From NCBI GenBank assembly GCA_013816505.1, contig JACDEG010000002.1, forward strand, positions 1 through 42,199: DNA of 42,199 nt, in the 5' to 3' direction. This DNA comes from Pyrinomonadaceae bacterium (GTDB lineage: Bacteria; Acidobacteriota; Blastocatellia; Pyrinomonadales; Pyrinomonadaceae). Position numbers and translations under genes: made by a program. The notes below the pieces were generated by a model that was not told the origin of the DNA, did no database searches, and saw nothing but the letters and a program-made list of their open reading frames with translations. Below are positions 4,094-37,704 of the stretch, piece after piece (positions within the stretch are counted from its first letter, which is position 1; the number at the start of each line of letters is the position of its first letter).

Positions 4094-5533
4094 TCAGGGA
4101 GAAAGCTCGACGTCGCGTAAATCAATTGTTGCGATGGCGACGAGGCAGGTCAACACGAGCGCGTTGACAGTGAAATGGAGACCGAAATCAACCAAGCTAT
4201 GCACGGCCACGCCGAACAGTCCGACGAGCGCGCCCTTGCACGCCGCGCGGCGGAAACGATCCGTTGAGCGCAAAGACGCACGTGCGCCTTTGCGCACCAA
4301 GATTAAAAACCATAAGGCGAGACCGGCTCCGACGATTCCTCCGCTCGCCAGCAGTTCCAGGTAATCATTATGCGCTTGCTGCGGCACCAAGCTGCCCGAC
4401 GCATTATGGTAGGCGGGTATCGCCGTCCAGTAACCGCCAAAGCCGACTCCGGCCACTGGATGCGCCTCAATCATACGCCAGGTCGCCTGCCACAATTCAG
4501 CACGCCCTACCCTTGACCGATCCTTAGTTACGCTTGAGCCAACTTCGTCTTTCACCGTTTCGAGACGGGCGACTAGAGGATCTCCCCCCACCCAGACCAT
4601 CCCGATGAGGATGGCTAGAAACAAGCAGGCGATGAGCGTCACGCGAAACGCAAGGGATCGCCCCCAACTGCCAAGCCCGACCACATCATCTACAGTTGCC
4701 CCCTCACGCTCAGTTTGTGACGTTGCCCAGAGCAATGCGAGGAAGAGCATCTGACTTAACATAGCAAAGATGCCGCCGCGCGAATATGAGAGAATGAGCG
4801 CGGCCCATATTGGCATTGCGACGACCAGATAGATCCGCGCCCGGTCGTGTGGCACGCCCCGCCCGGCAACGAGGCCGAGCAGGAGACCGAGTGACATCTC
4901 CATCAGAAACGCGAAATGATTTCTGTTGATGAACTGGCCATAGCCGGAATCCCGCATGAGGTAGGGGAGAACGAAGCCCGCCGCGCTGCGCTGTGTGGTC
5001 TGCCGCAGGATGCCGAAAAGGGCACTCAGCACTCCCACCCCAATCACGGTGAAGATGAGCGCACGCAGACGTCGCCTGCTGGACGTATATCGCAACAAGA
5101 GTCCTGCGGCGAGCGTGAGGGCGAGGAGATTAAAGGCGACGAGCCGAGTCTCGGATGGGTCGGCGCTGATAGCATTCCACACATCGATGCCAGCCTCGCG
5201 CGACGCCTCTCCCGGCAAAGGAAGAGTCTGAAAAAAGGTGAAACCCGCCACCACAAGAAGCGGCACAAGCAGGCGATGCTCTTTGACGAACCACGCTCCA
5301 CGCGAAAGCCCTTCGATGGCCCACAGTGCGCCGAGCACAAACACGGCGCACTCAAAGACGGCTTTCCACCAGGGTTCAACCGTACCATACGGAATGGCAG
5401 TCAAGACGATCAAAGTCAGAAGCGCGCAGAAGATTGTTCGATTGAGAAGGCTGGCGGCGCGCGCTCGTAAAGAAAGAGAAGCGGCGAACGCCGGGCGGCC
5501 TGATAGTCTTTCCTGTACCGTAGTGCTACTCAT
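4094..5533 (-). CDS. O-antigen ligase/polymerase family protein (Wzy/WaaL-like)
   Basis: Polytopic membrane protein with the typical QQAHNDYLELLASGGIVGAGLALW motif. Confidence 0.85.
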   Translation of the reverse strand: MSSTTVQERLSGRPAFAASLSLRARAASLLNRTIFCALLTLIVLTAIPYGTVEPWWKAVFECAVFVLGALWAIEGLSRGAWFVKEHRLLVPLLVVAGFTFFQTLPLPGEASREAGIDVWNAISADPSETRLVAFNLLALTLAAGLLLRYTSSRRRLRALIFTVIGVGVLSALFGILRQTTQRSAAGFVLPYLMRDSGYGQFINRNHFAFLMEMSLGLLLGLVAGRGVPHDRARIYLVVAMPIWAALILSYSRGGIFAMLSQMLFLALLWATSQTEREGATVDDVVGLGSWGRSLAFRVTLIACLFLAILIGMVWVGGDPLVARLETVKDEVGSSVTKDRSRVGRAELWQATWRMIEAHPVAGVGFGGYWTAIPAYHNASGSLVPQQAHNDYLELLASGGIVGAGLALWFLILVRKGARASLRSTDRFRRAACKGALVGLFGVAVHSLVDFGLHFTVNALVLTCLVAIATIDLRDVELSP

Positions 5534-5697: not shown

Positions 5698-6888
5698 TTA
5701 ATCGAATGCGGGCTTCGGCAGCCCATTTTTATACTTCAGCACCAAACGCAGAGGCCGCACCAGGTAATAGAGAAAAGAGAGAGATGACGGCAGGGGAAGA
5801 GAAGCCCACTCTATCGGGGTGGGAGTTAGTACCTGATCGAAACAGTAGAGGGCCTTTCGGCGAAGGTATTCGATTGCCCTCAGATTAAAGAGATGCTCTT
5901 CAAAAAATCCGCCCGCCACATCGGTATCGCGCAGGAGAATACGATAAACCTGAGCGGCAAGCCTATCCATCGAGGGATCGGTTTTTATTCGTCGCGCAAG
6001 CTCACCCGGAAGCTCAACTCCGAATAGCTCGGATGCCAGGTGAAAACCCAAGAGGAGCATTCGCTCACTGCCCTGCCTGTCGGCCTGATCAATAAGCCGT
6101 TGCCAGTCCACCATTGTTGACGCACGCAGATGCGCGGCGAGGTCATAGATCATGCTCAGGAGGTGCCAGCAATGTTTGCTCCCATGCACACAAAGAAACA
6201 AGAGCATATCCTCAGCAGAGAGCGTAGCGACGATCCGACCGGCGACCGTCGTTGACTCAACTCTATTCCACACGTTTTCCGTATCAAGAGTCGCTTGAAA
6301 CCACCTGGGTGCGAGCGCCCAATGCAGATCAACGGCTACTCCTTCCACCTCGTGCCAGAACGCATGCTCGTTACGAAACCTGATCAGATCAGTTTCCTGT
6401 TCACGTGTGAGAGAGAACTGTGGGCAATAGCCATGAGAGATTAAAAGTTCGCGAGCTTTCGGGACATCCTCCGTGTGAATCAGAACGTCAAGATCACTAA
6501 ACTGCCGCAGCGCACTGTCGCCGTATGCCGAAAGCGCGAGCAAAGGGCCTTTGAATGGGACGGCCGCGATTTGATGCTCCTCAAAAAGCGCCAGAAGTTT
6601 TAGCAACTTGGCAGTCAGAAGAAGATTGCGCCGGGCATTGGCAGTGAACTGCTCGTGGAGTTGTGTGAGCGCAGCTTCAGGAACAAACGACGCGCAAGTT
6701 TCGCTCAGGCGCGCGTAGAGATGTGGCATCATCCCGTGATGGTTGGCGAGGCGAACTAAGCATTGCCAGTCCAGCCGCTGCTCTAACAGGGTGCGCAGAC
6801 GCTTGCACCCTCTGCGATGAGAGCGCATGGCGCAACAAAGCAGCAACTCGAATTCCGGTCGCATAGCGATGGTCGGGCTTTCGGTCAT
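5698..6888 (-). CDS. Nucleotidyltransferase-family protein (PF14907-like), probable lasso-peptide tailoring enzyme
   Basis: FKGPLLALSAYGDSALRQFSDLDVLIHTEDVPKARELL and AVDLHWAL motifs. Adjacent to the lasso kinase/methyltransferase genes. Confidence 0.8.
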   Translation of the reverse strand: MTESPTIAMRPEFELLLCCAMRSHRRGCKRLRTLLEQRLDWQCLVRLANHHGMMPHLYARLSETCASFVPEAALTQLHEQFTANARRNLLLTAKLLKLLALFEEHQIAAVPFKGPLLALSAYGDSALRQFSDLDVLIHTEDVPKARELLISHGYCPQFSLTREQETDLIRFRNEHAFWHEVEGVAVDLHWALAPRWFQATLDTENVWNRVESTTVAGRIVATLSAEDMLLFLCVHGSKHCWHLLSMIYDLAAHLRASTMVDWQRLIDQADRQGSERMLLLGFHLASELFGVELPGELARRIKTDPSMDRLAAQVYRILLRDTDVAGGFFEEHLFNLRAIEYLRRKALYCFDQVLTPTPIEWASLPLPSSLSFLYYLVRPLRLVLKYKNGLPKPAFD

Positions 6889-6891
6889 AAT

Positions 6892-8040
6892 CTACCGGCT
6901 GTAATTCTTAGACAATTCGCTGACGCGATTCAGAGCCTCCGGCCAGCCGATGAATTTATGAGGGAACCGCTCCGACAACGCCCGGGCGATTTCGCCGACC
7001 GAATTGTCACCGTTCATGAGCGACAGAATGAATCGGTCTATCTGACCACTCTCGTTTAGTGTCGGTACATGCGTCGTTGACTGTTTGCGTAAACGCGCAG
7101 GGGATAGTGGCACACCATAGAAAGTAGATTGCTTAAAATCAGCCTTGATCCGCGAAGAGTCTCCCTGCTCCTCGACGCGGGTCTCCCAACGCCAGATGTA
7201 GTCTTCGCCAACTAGATTAGCGTGCAGCGCGACTGATACGGTGTCGCCGTCAGCGAGCTTGACGGGCTTCAACCAAGGGAAGAAAGCATTACCGTAGATG
7301 AGTTCAGGCATGCCGGGAGCATTGGAGAACCCCACCCCTTCCACCAAGACGGTGTCAAACCAGGCGCTAATCCCATGAGCAGTTCCCGCACGCGCGACCG
7401 TCCATTTTAGTTCCGCACTGATGTTAGGGTTTTCCACTTCCGAATAGGCAAGCGTCCCCCAGCATTGCGGCTCTACCAACAATTGCTCCGGCGTCACACG
7501 CCCTTTATGCCACGTGTTAGCCGCGATCCGCTGCCCCGCCTCCATGTCGAGGCCGTAGTTGTTGTCATCCGAGTAAGCTATATGTTGCCGGTAAAGGTCT
7601 GGCGTTTCCACCACCGCCGCCCACAGGGTGTCGCGATGAGGAATTAGCTTGCCTCCGGGCGCAAGCAAACGCTGCCGGGCATCGGCAATGGAGGATATGT
7701 GGTGTTGAAACAGTGGGAGAATGCCGCGCAGGTCAGAGATGATGACATCAGCTCGCTCGGACAAAGTTACTTCAGTTGAGCTGCTTTGAATGAACTCGAT
7801 GCGCTCACTATAACCGTTGGCAGCAGCGGCCTCTCGCGCCACCTGAATGGCGTCGTCCGGCTCGACGGCGTAGACGCGGCGAGCGCCGAATTGACAAGCG
7901 AGCATCGCGAAAATGCCGGTGCCCGTGCCGATATCCAGAACAATCGAATTCGGTTCGATGACGCGGCGAAGCGCCTGCGTGTAAGCATCCATGCGCACGC
8001 TGTCGGCGATCATGCGGCCATAACTTGAAACGCTATACAT
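6892..8040 (-). CDS. PRMT-like class I SAM methyltransferase with C-terminal PqqD-like segment
   Basis: VLDIGTGTGIFAMLACQFGARRVYAVEPDD (motif I/post I) and ADVIISDLRG. C-terminus LNESGQIDRFILSLMNGDNSVGEIARALSERFP resembles PqqD/RRE folds. 8-nt overlap with the kinase gene. Confidence 0.75.
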   Translation of the reverse strand: MYSVSSYGRMIADSVRMDAYTQALRRVIEPNSIVLDIGTGTGIFAMLACQFGARRVYAVEPDDAIQVAREAAAANGYSERIEFIQSSSTEVTLSERADVIISDLRGILPLFQHHISSIADARQRLLAPGGKLIPHRDTLWAAVVETPDLYRQHIAYSDDNNYGLDMEAGQRIAANTWHKGRVTPEQLLVEPQCWGTLAYSEVENPNISAELKWTVARAGTAHGISAWFDTVLVEGVGFSNAPGMPELIYGNAFFPWLKPVKLADGDTVSVALHANLVGEDYIWRWETRVEEQGDSSRIKADFKQSTFYGVPLSPARLRKQSTTHVPTLNESGQIDRFILSLMNGDNSVGEIARALSERFPHKFIGWPEALNRVSELSKNYSR

Positions 8041-9049
8041 ATTGGCATTGCTCGGCGTCTGCGGAGGCAGGCGCGGGAGGGATTAACGCTTGGAAGTCAT
8101 CCAGAATCACTTCACACATTCTTGACAGATACGCAGGGTCTGCATGCGGCTCCACGCGTCGCAAAGGGATGTGGGCAACAACGCGACTTAACAACTCAAG
8201 CTCTCGGGCGCGCAGCGCCTTGTCCAACAGATAGTTAGTGTACGTGTTTGAAATCAGGGTGATGAGACCCGCCTGGGGGGATACATCTTCAACGCGAGGC
8301 GCTACGGAATCGCTGCGGCGCTCGCCGAGAATGTAAACGGCGGAGAGTGGCAGCGGCTGTTGTTGAAAACAATATCCTTTCAGCGTGAGGTCGAGGTAAC
8401 GTTTATCCCAAGTCGGCGTCAAGCGTGGCAATGCTTCCGCGGAGCCGTAGAGAAGGTCGACGGACGACGGCCACAGGCGCAAGCGCGGGTAACCGGGCTG
8501 CGACCCAAAAGTGTCCCCTTGATCGATGAGAGCGACTACGTCGTCAGACAACACGGGATAGCCTAATCCGGCGAAGGCCGCGGCGGTAGTCGATTTTCCC
8601 GCGCCAGCCGGCCCAAGCAGCGCAATCGCCTGACCATTGACCGCTATAGCGCTGGCGTGCAGGCAAGTAATTCCGCGCAGGCGCAAGACAAACCCCATGA
8701 CTGGTCCTAAGAGGTAGGTGGTCATATCACTGAGGGTCATGGTATCGGGCCAACTAGCCCATATCTCTTTCCCCCGCCGGTCGATGAAGAACTCAGTGCC
8801 GTCACAGTAAAGGAGACGAAAATACTCGCCGTCCGCCAGCCTCCACACAGTTAAACTGGGCTGGCCCCACCTGTCTTGATAACTGTTGGCGTACCACAAC
8901 TCTATTGCCGCTTCTGATATTTCCTTCAACCAGGGCGGCACCATTTCTATCCACACTTGCACATCGACACCGGCGGCAACCGACATCTCCACTAAGCCGG
9001 GGATGCGCTTATTGGCCTGCAATTGCAAGCCAAAAACAGAATAAATCAA
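8033..9049 (-). CDS. HPr kinase-like protein, putative lasso-peptide kinase
   Basis: Walker A GPAGAGKSTTAAAF, LSDDVVAL, HASAIAVNG. TTG start. Immediately downstream of the precursor gene. Confidence 0.85.
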   Translation of the reverse strand: MIYSVFGLQLQANKRIPGLVEMSVAAGVDVQVWIEMVPPWLKEISEAAIELWYANSYQDRWGQPSLTVWRLADGEYFRLLYCDGTEFFIDRRGKEIWASWPDTMTLSDMTTYLLGPVMGFVLRLRGITCLHASAIAVNGQAIALLGPAGAGKSTTAAAFAGLGYPVLSDDVVALIDQGDTFGSQPGYPRLRLWPSSVDLLYGSAEALPRLTPTWDKRYLDLTLKGYCFQQQPLPLSAVYILGERRSDSVAPRVEDVSPQAGLITLISNTYTNYLLDKALRARELELLSRVVAHIPLRRVEPHADPAYLSRMCEVILDDFQALIPPAPASADAEQCQYV

Positions 9050-9085: not shown

Positions 9086-9247
9086 CTACGAAGTCTTGTT
9101 ACCGGTCTGTATGAAGTCCGGGTTATTCCCACCTTTAGGCGAAGTTCGTGTAATCTCGCGAATGTCCCCGTAGAGTATCAGTTGGGGCTTGTCATAAGGC
9201 TTTTTTACAACTTTCTCATTGACAGCTTTCTCATCTGGACCTCGCAC
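9086..9247 (-). CDS. Lasso peptide precursor (53 aa; not in supplied ORF track)
   Basis: Manual translation: MRGPDEKAVNEKVVKKPYDKPQLILYGDIREITRTSPKGGNNPDFIQTGNKTS*. GTG start with AGGGAG 10 nt upstream. Leader Y-xx-P-x-L-xxx-G-xxxxx-T. Lies directly between cyclase and kinase genes. Confidence 0.85.
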   Translation of the reverse strand: MRGPDEKAVNEKVVKKPYDKPQLILYGDIREITRTSPKGGNNPDFIQTGNKTS

Positions 9248-9263: not shown

Positions 9264-11096
9264 CTAAGGTTTATAGTTGCTGCGGTGCCGCAACCAGTAA
9301 TTAAGACTGAGTGGATGCATGTTGATCCACATCTGATTGGGGTCTTTCTTCCCTGTGAGGCGCGGAATCAAATCTCTATTAACATATCTGGCAAGTTCTT
9401 GAGTGGGGTTGAAGTCATCCACCCAGTGAGAATCGCGATGCCGTAGAAGCTCCAAGATAGGGTCGCCTGCAAGGGGCGCCTTCGGGCGACAACGCACCGG
9501 CTCCGGCAAAATGTGGCGCATCGCGACACGTAACAGGTGTTTGTTTATGCACCAGGGGATTGGCGGAATTGCCAGCATGTAAATCATCAACCTGAGGTCG
9601 AAGAAAGGATGCCGGACTTCAATCGGTGTCGATGTTACGCCCGCATCATAGGTCTCAAAAAGCTTGGGCCAAAATGGTGCCGTGGTTAGTTGGTATCCTT
9701 CAGGTCGGAAGGGGTGAACCGGTGGCGGCTCCTTATTCAACTCTTCCCAACGCGCTCGCAAATCCAATCTTGCTTCAAGAGCTCTGGTAAACCAGACCGG
9801 GTATGGCGACTGCCAGGAACACTTATTGAGCCAGCGCTTCACTCGCGAGCGGAAGCCAAGCGGGGGTAATCGACCGTGCGATATGAGCTGGAGATACATG
9901 TCTGTAAGAAGCTGCCCGAAGTGCAGATGTTTCATTAAGAATGGAACGTATGAGGAAGAGCCGCGCAAGGCCGGGTCAGCTCCATAGCCGGACAATGCGA
10001 CGCGGCAGTGTGCTGCGACTTGCCGGTACTGGTCATTGACAACCGCTGCCGCAAACGGTTCATTTAAAGGCTCGGGTGTGCATAACTCAGGCTCACCCCA
10101 ACGCTCATAAAGCTTATAATCGTCAGCCGTCAAATAATGGATCGGGATGCCCAACTTCTGCGCCACCAGCCCTGAGTAGTGACGCTCCTGATCGGGAATC
10201 AATTTGTCGAAAACTACTGTGTAGGCTCGGAGGTCAAAGCTCGTAGATCGTTCGGATAGTATATCGTGAGCCGTCGCCGCTACCGCTGTAGAGTCAAGAC
10301 CGCCGCTCATGAGCACTCCCGTGCGTTGCGTGCGAAGCCGATCATCTACCGCCGTTCGTAATCGCTCAATAAAGCCTTCAACGTAATCCCCGGCCTTCGT
10401 ATACCGGATTTGCTTACCTGCGGGGGGCGTCCAGTAGCGGCCCAGGTGTGGCGACCCTCCCGACCAAGTCAGGGAATGCGCGGGCGGCAAGCGTCTGATG
10501 TCGGCGAAGGATGTGGTGGCCAGGTCTTGATTAAAACCCCAAAGCAGGAAATCGCCGACAGCCAGATCATTTAAAGCGTCTGAGACACCCGGGTGAATTC
10601 GTAAGCAATTCAGGGTATTGCTGATTATTAAGTGGCTTGCCACGTGAGCATAGTAAAACGGCTTCACCCCGAAGTGGTCGCGGGCACCGAATAAGCGTTG
10701 CCGCCACCCGTCCCATAGTACAAAAGCGAAGTCGCCGATCAAATGCTGAACACAGTCCTCGTCCCAAACGTGATAAGCGTGCAGGATAAGCTCGGCATCG
10801 GTGGCGGTCTTAAGACCGGCGCGTCCTTTGACCTCTAATTTTCGAATCAGCTCTGCCCTGCCATCGACACGCGCATCGCCGGTAATCCACACTTTGCCGT
10901 CCAGGCTACATGGCTGCCTCTCGTGCAGCGACTCCGTGGTCGTGCGCATCATCGTGTGTCCGAGGCCAACATGACCGTCGCACCAGATTTCCTGAGCGTC
11001 CGGCCCGCGAAAGGCCATGAAGTCGGTCATCCGCTGCAACAATGTCTGGTCAACGGGCGCGCCGTTGGTGTTGATTAATCCGACAATGCCACTCAC
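9264..11096 (-). CDS. Lasso peptide isopeptide-bond-forming cyclase (asparagine synthetase-like, C protein)
   Basis: MSGIVGLINTNG N-terminus (Ser2 instead of glutaminase Cys2), FRGPDAQEIW, GVLMSGGLDSTAVAATA ATP-pyrophosphatase motif. Adjacent to B1/B2. Confidence 0.9.
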   Translation of the reverse strand: MSGIVGLINTNGAPVDQTLLQRMTDFMAFRGPDAQEIWCDGHVGLGHTMMRTTTESLHERQPCSLDGKVWITGDARVDGRAELIRKLEVKGRAGLKTATDAELILHAYHVWDEDCVQHLIGDFAFVLWDGWRQRLFGARDHFGVKPFYYAHVASHLIISNTLNCLRIHPGVSDALNDLAVGDFLLWGFNQDLATTSFADIRRLPPAHSLTWSGGSPHLGRYWTPPAGKQIRYTKAGDYVEGFIERLRTAVDDRLRTQRTGVLMSGGLDSTAVAATAHDILSERSTSFDLRAYTVVFDKLIPDQERHYSGLVAQKLGIPIHYLTADDYKLYERWGEPELCTPEPLNEPFAAAVVNDQYRQVAAHCRVALSGYGADPALRGSSSYVPFLMKHLHFGQLLTDMYLQLISHGRLPPLGFRSRVKRWLNKCSWQSPYPVWFTRALEARLDLRARWEELNKEPPPVHPFRPEGYQLTTAPFWPKLFETYDAGVTSTPIEVRHPFFDLRLMIYMLAIPPIPWCINKHLLRVAMRHILPEPVRCRPKAPLAGDPILELLRHRDSHWVDDFNPTQELARYVNRDLIPRLTGKKDPNQMWINMHPLSLNYWLRHRSNYKP

Positions 11097-11578
11097 TGAA
11101 ATTTCTTTCCCGGTGCGATGTTATATTCGAAAGGCGTAAAGCGTTGGCGAACGTCGTCGCTATCGTTCAAGGCAACGCCTGCGAACTCGACCCACGCGTG
11201 TGCATCCAACCGCGCAGCATTTTTGCGTGCGCCGATGCAAAGATAGCTCCCGATCCCCTGGCGGCGCAGCAACCACCAGAGCACGAGCGACTGCGGAAGG
11301 CAGCTGGCGTGGTAAAAGCCATGCATAGCGGCTGCCCTGACCATTCTCGCAGTGATCTGCGCCCGCCGTAAAAGAGTCTCATCATGGTTGGCGCTTGAGG
11401 GCTTATCTACGGGCGCGAGCCTTGCCAGAGCGGATTGCCAACGCCTGAAACCCGACCGCCGGAGCGCGAGTGAACAGAGCGGCAGCAAAAGGAACGCCTG
11501 CGCAAGCAACCGGCGCTCTCGCCAGGATAAGCGCTGAAATTTTCCCCAGCTAGTCGCTGCTGATTTCGAGTATCCCAT
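11093..11578 (-). CDS. Lasso peptide biosynthesis B2 protein (transglutaminase-like leader protease)
   Basis: HASCLPQSLVLWWLLRRQGIGSYLCIGARKN...LDAHAWVEFAGVALND: Cys-His-Asp triad context. 4-nt overlap with the cyclase gene. Confidence 0.9.
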   Translation of the reverse strand: MGYSKSAATSWGKFQRLSWRERRLLAQAFLLLPLCSLALRRSGFRRWQSALARLAPVDKPSSANHDETLLRRAQITARMVRAAAMHGFYHASCLPQSLVLWWLLRRQGIGSYLCIGARKNAARLDAHAWVEFAGVALNDSDDVRQRFTPFEYNIAPGKKFQ

Positions 11579-11834
11579 GCTCCACCGACTTCTCGATCAG
11601 ATCATCCAAGTCGCGCCGGAGCGACTCGGCATCCACCTCATATTCACGCAGCAGCGTTTCATACGCGGCTTGAATTGACTCGCTCGTGGTAAGCACGGTC
11701 CACATCCGCGTACCTACGGCATCAAGCCCAAAGTAACACTCACTATTCAGGTTGAGAATGACAGACTCGTCACCGACGTGTGAGACGAGTATCTCAGTCG
11801 GTGATGAAACCGATGCTGCGAATGAGACTCTCAT
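11550..11834 (-). CDS. PqqD-family/lasso peptide B1 protein (RiPP recognition element)
   Basis: MRVSFAASVSSPTEILVSHVGDESVILNLNSECYFGLDAVGTRMWTVLTTSESIQAAYETLLREYEVDAESLRRDLDDLIEKSVEHGIL. Start placed at 11834, with GGAAGG upstream, rather than 11891. Confidence 0.9.
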   Translation of the reverse strand: MRVSFAASVSSPTEILVSHVGDESVILNLNSECYFGLDAVGTRMWTVLTTSESIQAAYETLLREYEVDAESLRRDLDDLIEKSVEHGILEISSD

Positions 11835-11914
11835 AACCGATTTCCTTCCGAGGAAATTTACCGTGTCTTGACTCGCTGCGACGCCCTTCAAATGACCTTC
11901 GGCAATTGAAGGTT

Positions 11915-13516
11915 TCAGCCTCTGGTCGTCATACGGTCAGCAAGCTGTTTGCTTGACGCCCGCGCCTCTTCTTCCCCTGCGCCAAGGATTCTTTCGGCGG
12001 CTTGCGCCATCTCGCGTTGGAATATGACGCAAAGGTAGTTGACATCAAGCAAAAGTCCGTCACCGCCCAATTCACGGTAAAGAGTGATGTGGCCCCACCT
12101 GGCGCTGTCAGTTGAAAGCGGGAGGAGCAGCGACCAGAACAGGCCAGAGCCGTTGATTTCGGAAGCCTCGATATCGCCGCGCTCCCACTCCCACCAGATC
12201 AGGCCATCACGCATTTGGGCGCCACGTAGGGACGACGCATTTATTTCGCGCGACAACGCCCGCTCTGTTCCGGCGTCATCGCTCCCGCCGCCAAGTTGCA
12301 CGACGGCGTAGACGAACTCGCTCAGTTCGAGCATCTGCCGCACGGCGGTGAAAAGCTCACTCAGAGCGGTGGCCTTCGACATCGCGCGGCTCGCGCGGCG
12401 CACGCGGATATTGTTAGCCACGCGGATGCGTCGCTCGGCCAGATTGCGCCTCATGCTGGCTTTGAATTCATCCACCTCATGATAACGAAGGCGCCCCACC
12501 GCAAACACCGCGGCGACGGCGACGACGAAGAGAATGAGTCCGGTCGCGCGCCCCGTCTCGCTGACGAAGAGCAGCGAGACGATTCCGAACAGCGCGCACA
12601 CGCCGTAGAGCACAAACACCACGCGCCTCTGTGACCAACCATGCGCCAGCAGCATGTGATGAATATGCTCGCGGTCGCCCTCGAACAGAGGCCGGCCGCT
12701 GATAAAGCGGCGCGCCAGAGCAACGCTGGTGTCAATCACGGGCAGCCCGAAGGCCAGGAGCGGAATCGCCACGGCGACGGCGGTCGAAGCCTTCTGCGTG
12801 CTCTGAACGGAAAGGGCCGCGAGCAGGAATCCAATGAACAGCGAACCGGAATCGCCGAGAAAGATCGAAGCCGGATTGAAGTTATAACGCAAGAATCCGA
12901 TCAACGCTCCTGCGAGCGCGAGAGTGACGACCGTCACCACGGGATGGTTGAGCATCAGCGACACCACGAGCATGACGAGGGAGGCGAAAAGCCCCGCGCC
13001 CGCCCCTAACCCGTCCATTCCATCAATCAAATTAAACGCGTTGCAGATGCCGACGACCCAGCAGATGGTGGCGGCAAAGCCCAAAATGGTGGGAAGCTCA
13101 AAAGAACCGACTATCGGCACCGACAGAGCCTCAATGCGACCACCCAAAACGTAAAAGAGCACTCCCGCCAGCGCTTGCGCGATGAACTTACCCCGCGCGC
13201 TCGCCTCACGCAGGTCGTCATACACGCCGAAGAGAAAGATCAGGATCGCGGGTATAAATATGGCGAGCAACTGAGCACCGTTTTTTCTCAGCGTGTCGGT
13301 CACTAAATTGTCAACCAACGGGAGCGTCGCCAGTGTTAGAGAGACGGAGGCGAAAACTGCCACGCCTCCCAGACGCGAGACGGCTTGGCGATGCATCCGC
13401 CGCTGGTCAAGTGGCTGATCCAGCCAGTCGAAGCGCTCACTGATGCGACGTATGATTGGCGTCAGCACGAGCGAGGTAAATGTCGCAATCACGAATAAGG
13501 TAAGAAATGTATTCAT
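11915..13516 (-). CDS. WecA/TagO-like undecaprenyl-phosphate glycosyl-1-phosphate transferase with C-terminal extension
   Basis: RMHRQAVSRLGGVAVF, FGVYDDLREA, NAFNLIDGMDGLGAG, SIFLGDSGSLFIGF, DREHIHHMLLAHGWSQRR. Confidence 0.9.
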   Translation of the reverse strand: MNTFLTLFVIATFTSLVLTPIIRRISERFDWLDQPLDQRRMHRQAVSRLGGVAVFASVSLTLATLPLVDNLVTDTLRKNGAQLLAIFIPAILIFLFGVYDDLREASARGKFIAQALAGVLFYVLGGRIEALSVPIVGSFELPTILGFAATICWVVGICNAFNLIDGMDGLGAGAGLFASLVMLVVSLMLNHPVVTVVTLALAGALIGFLRYNFNPASIFLGDSGSLFIGFLLAALSVQSTQKASTAVAVAIPLLAFGLPVIDTSVALARRFISGRPLFEGDREHIHHMLLAHGWSQRRVVFVLYGVCALFGIVSLLFVSETGRATGLILFVVAVAAVFAVGRLRYHEVDEFKASMRRNLAERRIRVANNIRVRRASRAMSKATALSELFTAVRQMLELSEFVYAVVQLGGGSDDAGTERALSREINASSLRGAQMRDGLIWWEWERGDIEASEINGSGLFWSLLLPLSTDSARWGHITLYRELGGDGLLLDVNYLCVIFQREMAQAAERILGAGEEEARASSKQLADRMTTRG

Positions 13517-35250: not shown

Positions 35251-37704
35251 TCAAGCGCCGGAGGCCATTTGGTCGGTCTCTTCTACCGGGCGGCCGTTAG
35301 ACTCCTGATAGTACTGACGGTAATAGTAGTAATCCTGCGAGCGCGTGCTGACGTTATTAAGGATTACACCAAAGATCTTGGAGCCGACATCGGATAAGAG
35401 TTGCCGCGCGCGGCGGACGGCTTGACGGGAAGTTTTCCCGCTATGCACGACGAGCAGCACACCGTCTACCATCGTTGAGATGACGACTCCGTCAGTGAAG
35501 GACCCGATGGGCGGCGAGTCGAAGACAACATGCGTGAAACTGGATTCGAGAATCGCGATGAGCCTCACCATCTGTTCGGAACTGAGGAGTTCTGCCGGGT
35601 TAGGGGGGATAGTTCCCGAGGGCAGCAGATACAGGCCGCTCGGATCATGCTGAAAGATGATGCAGAGTATCTGCGCCTCATTCATGTCACTTGCAAGAAT
35701 GGTGCTCAAGCCACTTTGATTCTCGATCTCGAAAATGGAGTGGACGCGCGGGCGGCGCATGTCGGCGTCAACGAGCAGCACCTTGGCTCCGGTTTGCGCA
35801 AGACTAAGCGCCGTGTTGACCGCCGTTGTGGTCTTTCCTTCACTCGGCACGCCCGACGTGACCAGCAGCGACTTCGGCGCGCGCCCTGCCGTTGACAGGA
35901 GCACAGAGGTGCGTAAGTGTCTGTAGGCTTCCGCGAGCGGCGCGGGCGCGTCAGGATTCATCATCAGCTCAGGAGCCATGTGCCCGTTACGGCGCTCCGA
36001 AGCGCGTGTTGAAGCAACCAGCCGTCGTTTCGACGAGCCGCTGACAGAAGGAATCACGGCGAGCGCAGGTAAGTGAAGCAATCTCTCCAAATCGTCGGTT
36101 GAACGAACCGAGTCGTTCAGGTACTCGAGGAAGATTGCCAGACCCACGCCGGCTGCAAGAGAAGAGAAGAGGGCGAGCAAAACGCTTCGCAGACGCTGCG
36201 GGCCCGTCGGCACATCGGGCACCAGCGCGTAGTCGAGGACGTAAATGTTGTTGGGCGTTCCCGCCAGAATCACATCGTTCTCTTTTGAGCGCTGGAGCAG
36301 TCCGTCGAGCAGGGTCTTATTCGTCGCAATCTCCTGCTGGATGATGCGGTAATTGATCGCGGCTTCGTTCTGTGCGACCGTCTCGCCGCGTTGCCTGCTG
36401 AAGGAATCTCTGAGCGCTTTCTCGCGGTTAAGCGCCTGGCGGTAGCGCGTTTCGAGATTAGTGGTGATGACTGACATCGCATTACTGCGCATGTCGCTCA
36501 CCTGCTTTTCGAGGACAGCGATTTGCTGCTTGACCTCTTTGACTTCCGGCCACGCCTGAGTGTTCTCGACGAGCAGTTGCGCCAATTTCTCGCGCAGCGC
36601 GGCCAACCTCTTCTCACCATCTTTGATTTCCGTCGCGTCCCTTTGGGCTAAAGCACTGGCCGCGCCGGGAGCGAGCGCAGCGCGGTAGGCGGCCTCGGCA
36701 TCGCCGCGCGCGTTTTCTGCTTCGAGCAATTGACCGTTGAGTCCCGCGAGACGTTCGACAACAGTGTTCTGGCTGGCGTCGAGCGAGATGATCTGGTTGT
36801 TCTTGGCGTAGTTGACAAGCCGCTCTCCGCCGCTGCGAATTTGCGCCTGCAAGTCCGCGACGCGTTTTTGCAGGAAATCTCCGGCGGAGGCGTTGGTCTC
36901 GGTCTTCTTCTCGAGGTTTAAGAGCGCGAAGGCATCGGCCACGGCGTTGACGATCTTCGCGGCTATTTGCGGGTCGGCGTGAGTGAAACTGATGTCAATG
37001 AGTCTCGTGTCTTTCACCCACGAACCTGTCCGCGTCTCCTTGACCGGCTCTATTTTGAGTCCACGCCTGATAGCATCAACTGAGGGGGCGAGGCGCTTCG
37101 CTTCAATCATGTCGTCGCGCGATGTGGCCGGCGCCACCGTTCCCGTCAGTGGCACCTCTTCGGCCGTCGTCTTCTTCTGCTGCGCACCGTTACTATCACT
37201 GCTGCCCATGCCGACCACGCGCAAGAGATTCTGCCAAAGGGAGCGGTTCTGTTCAGTCTGTGGTCTGAGGAATGCTTGGTTATGTTCGAGGTCGAGCGTC
37301 TTCACGACGCGTCGCAAGAGTCCCGGGCTGGTCAAAATTTGCAGTTGTGTGTTGAAGTAGGTCGGATCATTTGTCGGGTTGTTGATCACGACAGAAGAGG
37401 CATTGGCCGTCGCGCCAGCCGCCAGATTGTTCTCCAGATCAACCTGCACTCGCACCTGGGCGGTGTAAATGTCGGGCTGGCGTGCTGCGTTGATGGCTGC
37501 CAGCATCGTCACCGCCACCGTAATAGCGAGGACCAGCCACAGGTGCTTGCGCACCGCACGCCAGTATTCGCGCAGTTGATTCTCATCGCCGCCATCCTCC
37601 ACACCGTAACTGGCATATGACGGCGGCAACGGAGGAGTTTCGATAAGTTTTTCTAAACCTTGCACTGCCGCCAGGGCCCTTTTTTTCCCATCTTCTTGCA
37701 TCAC
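35251..37704 (-). CDS. wzc: Polysaccharide biosynthesis tyrosine autokinase (Wzc/BY-kinase)
   Basis: N-terminal Wzz-type domain, LLVTSGVPSEGKTTTAVNTALSLAQTGAKVLLVDADMRRPRVHSIF Walker motifs, C-terminal Tyr cluster DYYYYRQYYQES. Confidence 0.93.
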   Translation of the reverse strand: MMQEDGKKRALAAVQGLEKLIETPPLPPSYASYGVEDGGDENQLREYWRAVRKHLWLVLAITVAVTMLAAINAARQPDIYTAQVRVQVDLENNLAAGATANASSVVINNPTNDPTYFNTQLQILTSPGLLRRVVKTLDLEHNQAFLRPQTEQNRSLWQNLLRVVGMGSSDSNGAQQKKTTAEEVPLTGTVAPATSRDDMIEAKRLAPSVDAIRRGLKIEPVKETRTGSWVKDTRLIDISFTHADPQIAAKIVNAVADAFALLNLEKKTETNASAGDFLQKRVADLQAQIRSGGERLVNYAKNNQIISLDASQNTVVERLAGLNGQLLEAENARGDAEAAYRAALAPGAASALAQRDATEIKDGEKRLAALREKLAQLLVENTQAWPEVKEVKQQIAVLEKQVSDMRSNAMSVITTNLETRYRQALNREKALRDSFSRQRGETVAQNEAAINYRIIQQEIATNKTLLDGLLQRSKENDVILAGTPNNIYVLDYALVPDVPTGPQRLRSVLLALFSSLAAGVGLAIFLEYLNDSVRSTDDLERLLHLPALAVIPSVSGSSKRRLVASTRASERRNGHMAPELMMNPDAPAPLAEAYRHLRTSVLLSTAGRAPKSLLVTSGVPSEGKTTTAVNTALSLAQTGAKVLLVDADMRRPRVHSIFEIENQSGLSTILASDMNEAQILCIIFQHDPSGLYLLPSGTIPPNPAELLSSEQMVRLIAILESSFTHVVFDSPPIGSFTDGVVISTMVDGVLLVVHSGKTSRQAVRRARQLLSDVGSKIFGVILNNVSTRSQDYYYYRQYYQESNGRPVEETDQMASGA

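Follow-up and report, generated by a model that had tools for sequence, protein, structure and literature searches.

Does the small reading frame between the cyclase and kinase genes of a Pyrinomonadaceae bacterium encode a lasso peptide precursor, and what ring could be formed from its core? We addressed both questions in a 42,199-nucleotide stretch of contig JACDEG010000002.1 (assembly GCA_013816505.1), hereafter the window, and in related loci from several phyla.

Identification of the precursor gene

The reading frame at 9086..9247 on the minus strand (gene A), missing from the pipeline annotation, had been proposed as a lasso precursor gene on the basis of its leader, its ribosome-binding site, and its neighbors. 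Re-reading reproduced the coordinates and the quoted sequence exactly: the frame runs from a GTG start at 9247 to 9086, encodes 53 aa, and takes up most of the 214 bases that separate the cyclase gene from the kinase gene. The GTG is located 16 bases past the cyclase stop, and the Shine-Dalgarno sequence, AGAGGGAG, overlaps that stop at 9264. The translated product consists of the leader VRGPDEKAVNEKVVKKPYDKPQLILYGDIREITR and the core TSPKGGNNPDFIQTGNKTS, followed by a stop codon, and the leader stretch YDKPQLILYGDIREIT does fit the pattern YxxPxLxxxGxxxxxT. In an alignment of 24 precursors the Y, P, G, and T are invariant, and the recognition segment, Y(-17)xxP(-14)xL(-12)...G(-8)...T(-2)R(-1), corresponds to positions 9146..9196 (minus strand), following the published leader numbering with YxxPxL at -17 to -12 and Thr at -2 (PMC10368454). 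The leader Tyr is residue 18 counted from the GTG of the window, and residue 18–24 counted from the ATG in syntenic homologs. We also considered Ile at the penultimate leader position (-2), which has been published for Acidobacteriaceae, and rejected it because the window has Thr there.

A leave-one-out profile HMM was built from 23 relatives, with the window precursor excluded. Gene A was its sole match in the window, scoring 50.4 bits (E 1.1e-14), compared with a top score of 8.3 bits for the same HMM in 30 codon-shuffled windows. The NCBIfam model lasso_cyano (NF033528) matches the leader and the start of the core, and detects 22 of the 24 aligned precursors at E <= 0.01; the window precursor scores 25.0–25.7 bits, below the curated cut-off of 33, which may be why the gene is missing from the pipeline annotation. 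A lack of conservation in syntenic loci would have refuted the original prediction; on the contrary, the C-A-K junction with a small leader-bearing ORF recurs in three genomes of the same family (G001, G086, and G098), as well as in the same class and in other phyla. Homologs likewise rule out a precursor exclusive to the source genome. Gene A, with its YxxPxL...T(-2) leader and the adjoining B and C genes, encodes a lasso precursor within a genuine lasso operon.

Organization and distribution of the operon

The genes are arranged on the minus strand in the order B1, B2, C, A, K, MT, NT, with ends mostly overlapping or almost touching, a spacing that suggests transcription and translation as one operon; all seven are intact. 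B1, a PqqD-type RiPP recognition element, had been placed at 11550–11834, which holds for the ATG-start ORF (minus strand), while an alternative TTG start gives 11550–11891; by alignment and by its match to PF05402 (E 4e-13; 49.9 bits against a cut-off of 23.4) it is a PqqD-type recognition protein. B2 (11093..11578, minus strand) is a transglutaminase-like leader peptidase (Transglut_core3, PF13471) that passes the curated cut-off of NF033537, lasso_biosyn_B2 (79.9 vs 33 bits). C (9264..11096, minus strand) is assigned as an asparagine-synthetase-like lasso cyclase with Ser2 and an SGGLDS PPi loop by its Pfam Asn_synthase/GATase_7 matches (103 bits with PF00733), alignment, and tree; its best NCBIfam match is NF033535, at 371 bits, below the exception cut-off of 525 for that model. 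K (8033..9049, minus strand) is an HprK-like peptide kinase, recognized by weak matches to HprK-related Pfam and NCBIfam models and by a conserved motif, and is followed by MT (6892..8040, minus strand), a PRMT-fold SAM methyltransferase that the domain models also class as PRMT-like, and NT (5698..6888, minus strand), an NTP_transf_5 "nucleotidyltransferase" (PF14907, E 8e-66) annotated in the same way as PsmN and BsfN. No ABC transporter was recognized near the operon within the window; the cyanobacterial relative L032 does carry one.

Syntenic loci were present in the same class (G141, G150, G152, G153, and a family including Chloracidobacterium), and searches with MT and precursor sequences revealed loci in cyanobacteria (Argonema, Phormidium, Roseofilum, and others), Gemmatimonadetes, gamma- and betaproteobacteria, Myxococcota, Holophagaceae, and Bacteroidetes. 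The cyclase as a single-sequence query against genome contigs gave no match. The B1-B2-C-A-K-MT-NT order recurs in other acidobacteria, cyanobacteria, proteobacteria, and Gemmatimonadota, and no plasmid copies of the operon were found. Since glycosyltransferase genes flank the operon, one might read these genes as part of the surrounding exopolysaccharide locus and gene A as a chance ORF, a reading to which we give next to no credence: it is in the main refuted by the B2 score above the curated lasso_biosyn_B2 cut-off, by an E-value of 1e-14 with a profile that excludes the ORF, and by synteny across phyla.

Position of the predicted acceptor residue

Counted from Thr(-2), the predicted core of 19 aa (9089..9145, minus strand) contains a single acidic residue, Asp10 (codon GAC, 9116–9118). 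In structurally characterized lasso peptides, an Asp or Glu acceptor is located at core position 7, 8, or 9, and the rings comprise 7, 8, or 9 residues (PMC13352647). The window core has no Asp or Glu at 7–9, a lack that the original prediction overlooked; the standard ring assignment therefore fails, and the predicted ring comprises ten residues.

The prevalence of such cores was investigated in 125 distinct precursor sequences. An acid is present at positions 7–9 in 91 of these, and at position 10, with none at 7–9, in 23 (one or two perhaps mis-parsed), while position 11 accounts for just two. In the cyclase clade of the window, each of the 45 precursors carries Asp at 9 or 10 (27 D9, 18 D10), and the acidic residues at positions 7, 8, 11, and 12 number 1, 1, 0, and 0, respectively; chance would not give so sharp a stop in acid placement. 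Precursors of the D10 class, the window peptide among them, are recurrent and have their cyclases in one clade with those of D9 precursors.

Another reading is that the precursor has decayed, or that its core is unfit for its cyclase, with Asp10 as a neutral relic. The same-family relatives G001, G086, and G098 have their acceptor at 9 (or 8/9), and this particular core has been seen in a single genome, both of which would fit such decay. With the seven operon genes intact, and with D10 recurring in more than 10 loci from several phyla whose operons are intact and whose cores keep the same C-terminal dyad, we consider decay quite improbable and retain Asp10 as the predicted acceptor.

Two further kinds of locus were encountered. 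In other Acidobacteriota, five loci (L142, L144, L145, L150, and L152) encode lasso-like leaders followed by cores without an acid at 7–10 (acid at 11–17, or none), and represent either another RiPP type or a different kind of cyclization. In G388, on a 131 kb contig, a cyclase and a D10 precursor share one 741-aa open frame with no intervening stop (L219:4719-6944), which is either a natural C-A fusion or a precursor starting at an internal codon.

Predicted cleavage site

The main rival to a ten-residue ring is a shifted cleavage. If B2 cut one residue later, after Thr, the core would be SPKGGNNPDFIQTGNKTS, with an ordinary Ser1-Asp9 ring, and D10 leaders would be one residue longer; the ring size and the first residue, Ser, would then both have precedent. 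To compare registers, residues -2, -1, and +1 of D10 precursors were scored against the D9 profile. The unshifted register fitted best in 15 of 17 D10 precursors, the one-residue shift in none (mean -6.5 bits vs +5.0), and the two-residue shift in two (L049 and L220); when Thr(-2) was ignored, the unshifted register was still best in 14 of 17. The window precursor itself scored 4.8 bits without a shift, -6.7 with a one-residue shift, and -3.6 with a two-residue shift. A shift by one would place Arg at -2 in the window, and Lys, Gln, Met, Leu, Asn, or Gly in other D10 precursors, whereas Thr (or Ile/Val) occupies this place in known B1/B2 systems (PMC10368454), and the Y-to-T spacing is identical in the D9 and D10 precursors among the 24 aligned. 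These residue statistics disfavor the later cut, which we regard as unlikely.

A cut two residues later, with the second Thr serving as Thr(-2), would yield a core beginning PKGGNNPD and a Pro1-Asp8 ring. The window sequence I-T-R-T-S does have a second Thr at the right place, and L049 and L220 fit better in this register, but it requires Pro as the ring amine, scores poorly for the window precursor itself, and finds no parallel in most D10 relatives, in which position 1 is Asn, Ser, Ala, or Gly rather than Thr; we judge it very improbable. Cleavage after Thr(-2)-Arg(-1), giving a core with Asp10, is thus the reading used below.

Cyclase phylogeny and ring size

Of the 61 cyclases placed in a tree, 37 fall in a single clade with support 100/100, which comprises 22 D9 and 15 D10 entries and no D8. 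D10 is not one lineage, since the starred branches require 12 or more changes across the tree as a whole; D9 and D10 interleave, swapping repeatedly between close relatives. The cyclases of Argonema (D10) and Phormidium (D9) are 76% identical, those of Roseofilum acuticapitatum (D10) and R. halophilum (D9) are 71% identical, and a Gemmatimonadetes cluster (G516, L047 / L252) contains two adjacent C-A pairs, one D10 and one D9, with K, MT, and NT common to both. This interchange among close cyclases implies that the enzymes either tolerate both sizes or change fast.

At cyclase position 391 (window numbering), Arg is present in 10 of 22 D9 and in no D10 sequences, and Gly in 10 of 15 D10 sequences, a contrast beyond the 95% point of shuffles. 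By phylogenetically independent pairs the median p was 0.25, and because the contrast is not significant after correction for relatedness, we list position 391 as a candidate ring-size determinant.

Putative tailoring enzymes and the C-terminal dyad

K contains H131, the P-loop GPAGAGKST (G146, G149, and G151-K152-S153), and DD170-171 with D170. This H-GxxGxGKS-DD motif is conserved across homologs, as in BsfK, in which the His, the P-loop GKS, and the Asp-Asp are conserved and important (PMC10368454). The AlphaFold2 model of MT (pLDDT 75.5) retrieved PRMT6 and PRMT1 in Foldseek with E-values down to 1e-26, and a sequence profile against the PDB gave E 4e-51, in agreement with a PRMT fold. Neither the PRMT double-E loop nor the THW loop was seen in MT when the alignments were read by eye: the SE..G..E of PRMT1 aligns with S-D-L-R-G...Q, and the THW position is not kept. 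With these motifs altered, the substrate need not be arginine. MT also has a helical C-terminal extension (residues 314–382) with a weak resemblance to PqqD; the Pfam PqqD score of 18.7 bits is below the cut-off and no profile match to B1 was found, so that a PqqD/RRE domain there is at most a candidate.

Within the clade, a [KR][TS] dyad falls among the 8 C-terminal residues in 16 of 17 D10 and 20 of 27 D9 cores, against shuffled expectations of 3.2 and 4.4; outside the cyclase clade it occurs in 5 of 32 cores. By analogy with known lasso kinases, this dyad is likely the tailoring site. K probably phosphorylates its Thr or Ser, and NT would add to the phosphate, as in the PadeK and PsmK/PsmN systems (PMC9266682); candidate methylation targets of MT are the conserved basic residue and the C-terminal carboxylate. 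MT is located near 17 of 19 D10-only and 28 of 54 D7-9 precursors, a contrast that is biased because many loci were collected through MT.

Proposed biosynthetic pathway

From the sequences we infer the enzyme activities, ring, threading, and tailoring sites, and consider it likely that gene A specifies a kinase- and methyltransferase-tailored lasso precursor with a Thr1-Asp10 ten-residue macrolactam. Judging from family membership and register statistics, B1 would bind the YxxPxL leader segment and B2 would cleave behind Thr(-2)-Arg(-1). C would then adenylate Asp10, the sole core carboxylate, and couple it to the Thr1 amine, a ring closure in which we place fair confidence; the product would have a macrolactam ring of ten residues, with the other nine forming the loop and tail. 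The probable target of K, MT, and NT is the C-terminal Asn-Lys-Thr-Ser region of the precursor, in which K would phosphorylate the Thr or Ser. A ten-residue ring is sterically possible, as a fusilassin analog with one was made in vitro (PMC8498205; PMC13352647). Against the proposal, no sequenced close relative of the window precursor shares its core, a one-residue change in ring size often cuts yield (PMC13352647), and Thr1 is absent from the experimentally observed first residues, namely Gly, Cys, Ser, Ala, and now Asn (PMC12670498).

On balance, we lean towards a broader reading, in which a cyclase clade found across several phyla naturally makes both ten- and nine-residue rings, switching over short evolutionary distances. 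A kinase, a nucleotidyltransferase-like protein, and a PRMT-fold methyltransferase whose specificity would be new would then tailor the products further at a C-terminal Lys/Arg-Thr/Ser dyad.

Comparison with known lasso peptide systems

As a lasso cluster the locus is not categorically new, and the known ten-residue precedent is the engineered fusilassin analog. Searches of the open-access literature turned up no natural Asp10 acceptor or ten-residue lasso ring. Reviews take acceptor positions 7–9 as the normal range, and D10 precursors can consequently be missed or mis-parsed in genome mining. A natural ten-residue ring, if true, would extend the known structural range, the PRMT-fold enzyme would bring a new type of methyltransferase into lasso tailoring, and D9/D10 sister pairs such as Argonema and Phormidium offer material for finding the cyclase features that set ring size.

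The bsf cluster of Bradymonas sediminis (BsfA/B1/B2/C/D/K/N; PMC10368454) has in common with the window operon a split B1/B2, an asparagine-synthetase-like C, the YxxPxL leader, an HprK-like kinase with H-G-GKS-DD, and a nucleotidyltransferase-like N. It differs in its Ile(-2), predicted Gly1-Asp8 ring, and Ser3 phosphorylated within the ring, in contrast to Thr(-2), Asp10, and the C-terminal K/R-T/S dyad of the window; bsf includes an ABC transporter and no PRMT-like MT has been described for it, whereas the window operon has MT and no transporter gene nearby. In paeninodin and pseudomycoidin biosynthesis (PadeK, ThcoK, PsmK/PsmN; PMC9266682) the kinase acts on a C-terminal Ser, and in pseudomycoidin a PsmN-type protein, of the same annotation type as NT, adds a hexose to the phosphorylated residue. 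The window operon differs from these in ring size and in its PRMT-like MT; compared with their last-residue Ser, most relatives of the window precursor have Thr in an internal C-terminal Lys-Thr dyad, while the window core itself ends in Ser. The fusilassin analog (PMC8498205; PMC13352647) shares the ten-residue macrolactam predicted for the window, but was engineered in vitro from a nine-residue-ring peptide, whereas in the window a natural precursor sequence puts the acceptor at 10. Metanodin, from a soil metagenome (PMC12670498), likewise comes from an uncultured bacterium and has Asn1, as do several D10 relatives, but its cluster has a proteobacterial ABC architecture and its ring is of ordinary size.

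Genomic surroundings

The lasso operon is surrounded by an exopolysaccharide locus (4094–37704 of the window), which includes a Wzy-like gene (4094–5533), a WecA-like gene (11915–13516), many glycosyltransferase genes, and a Wzc-like ORF (35251–37704) recognized by eye. A WecA-like gene, 59% identical, is also present upstream in G001, and a Wzc-like ORF follows MT in G388. Close to the contig end, an IS3-type transposase-like ORF was recognized by eye at 221–1138.
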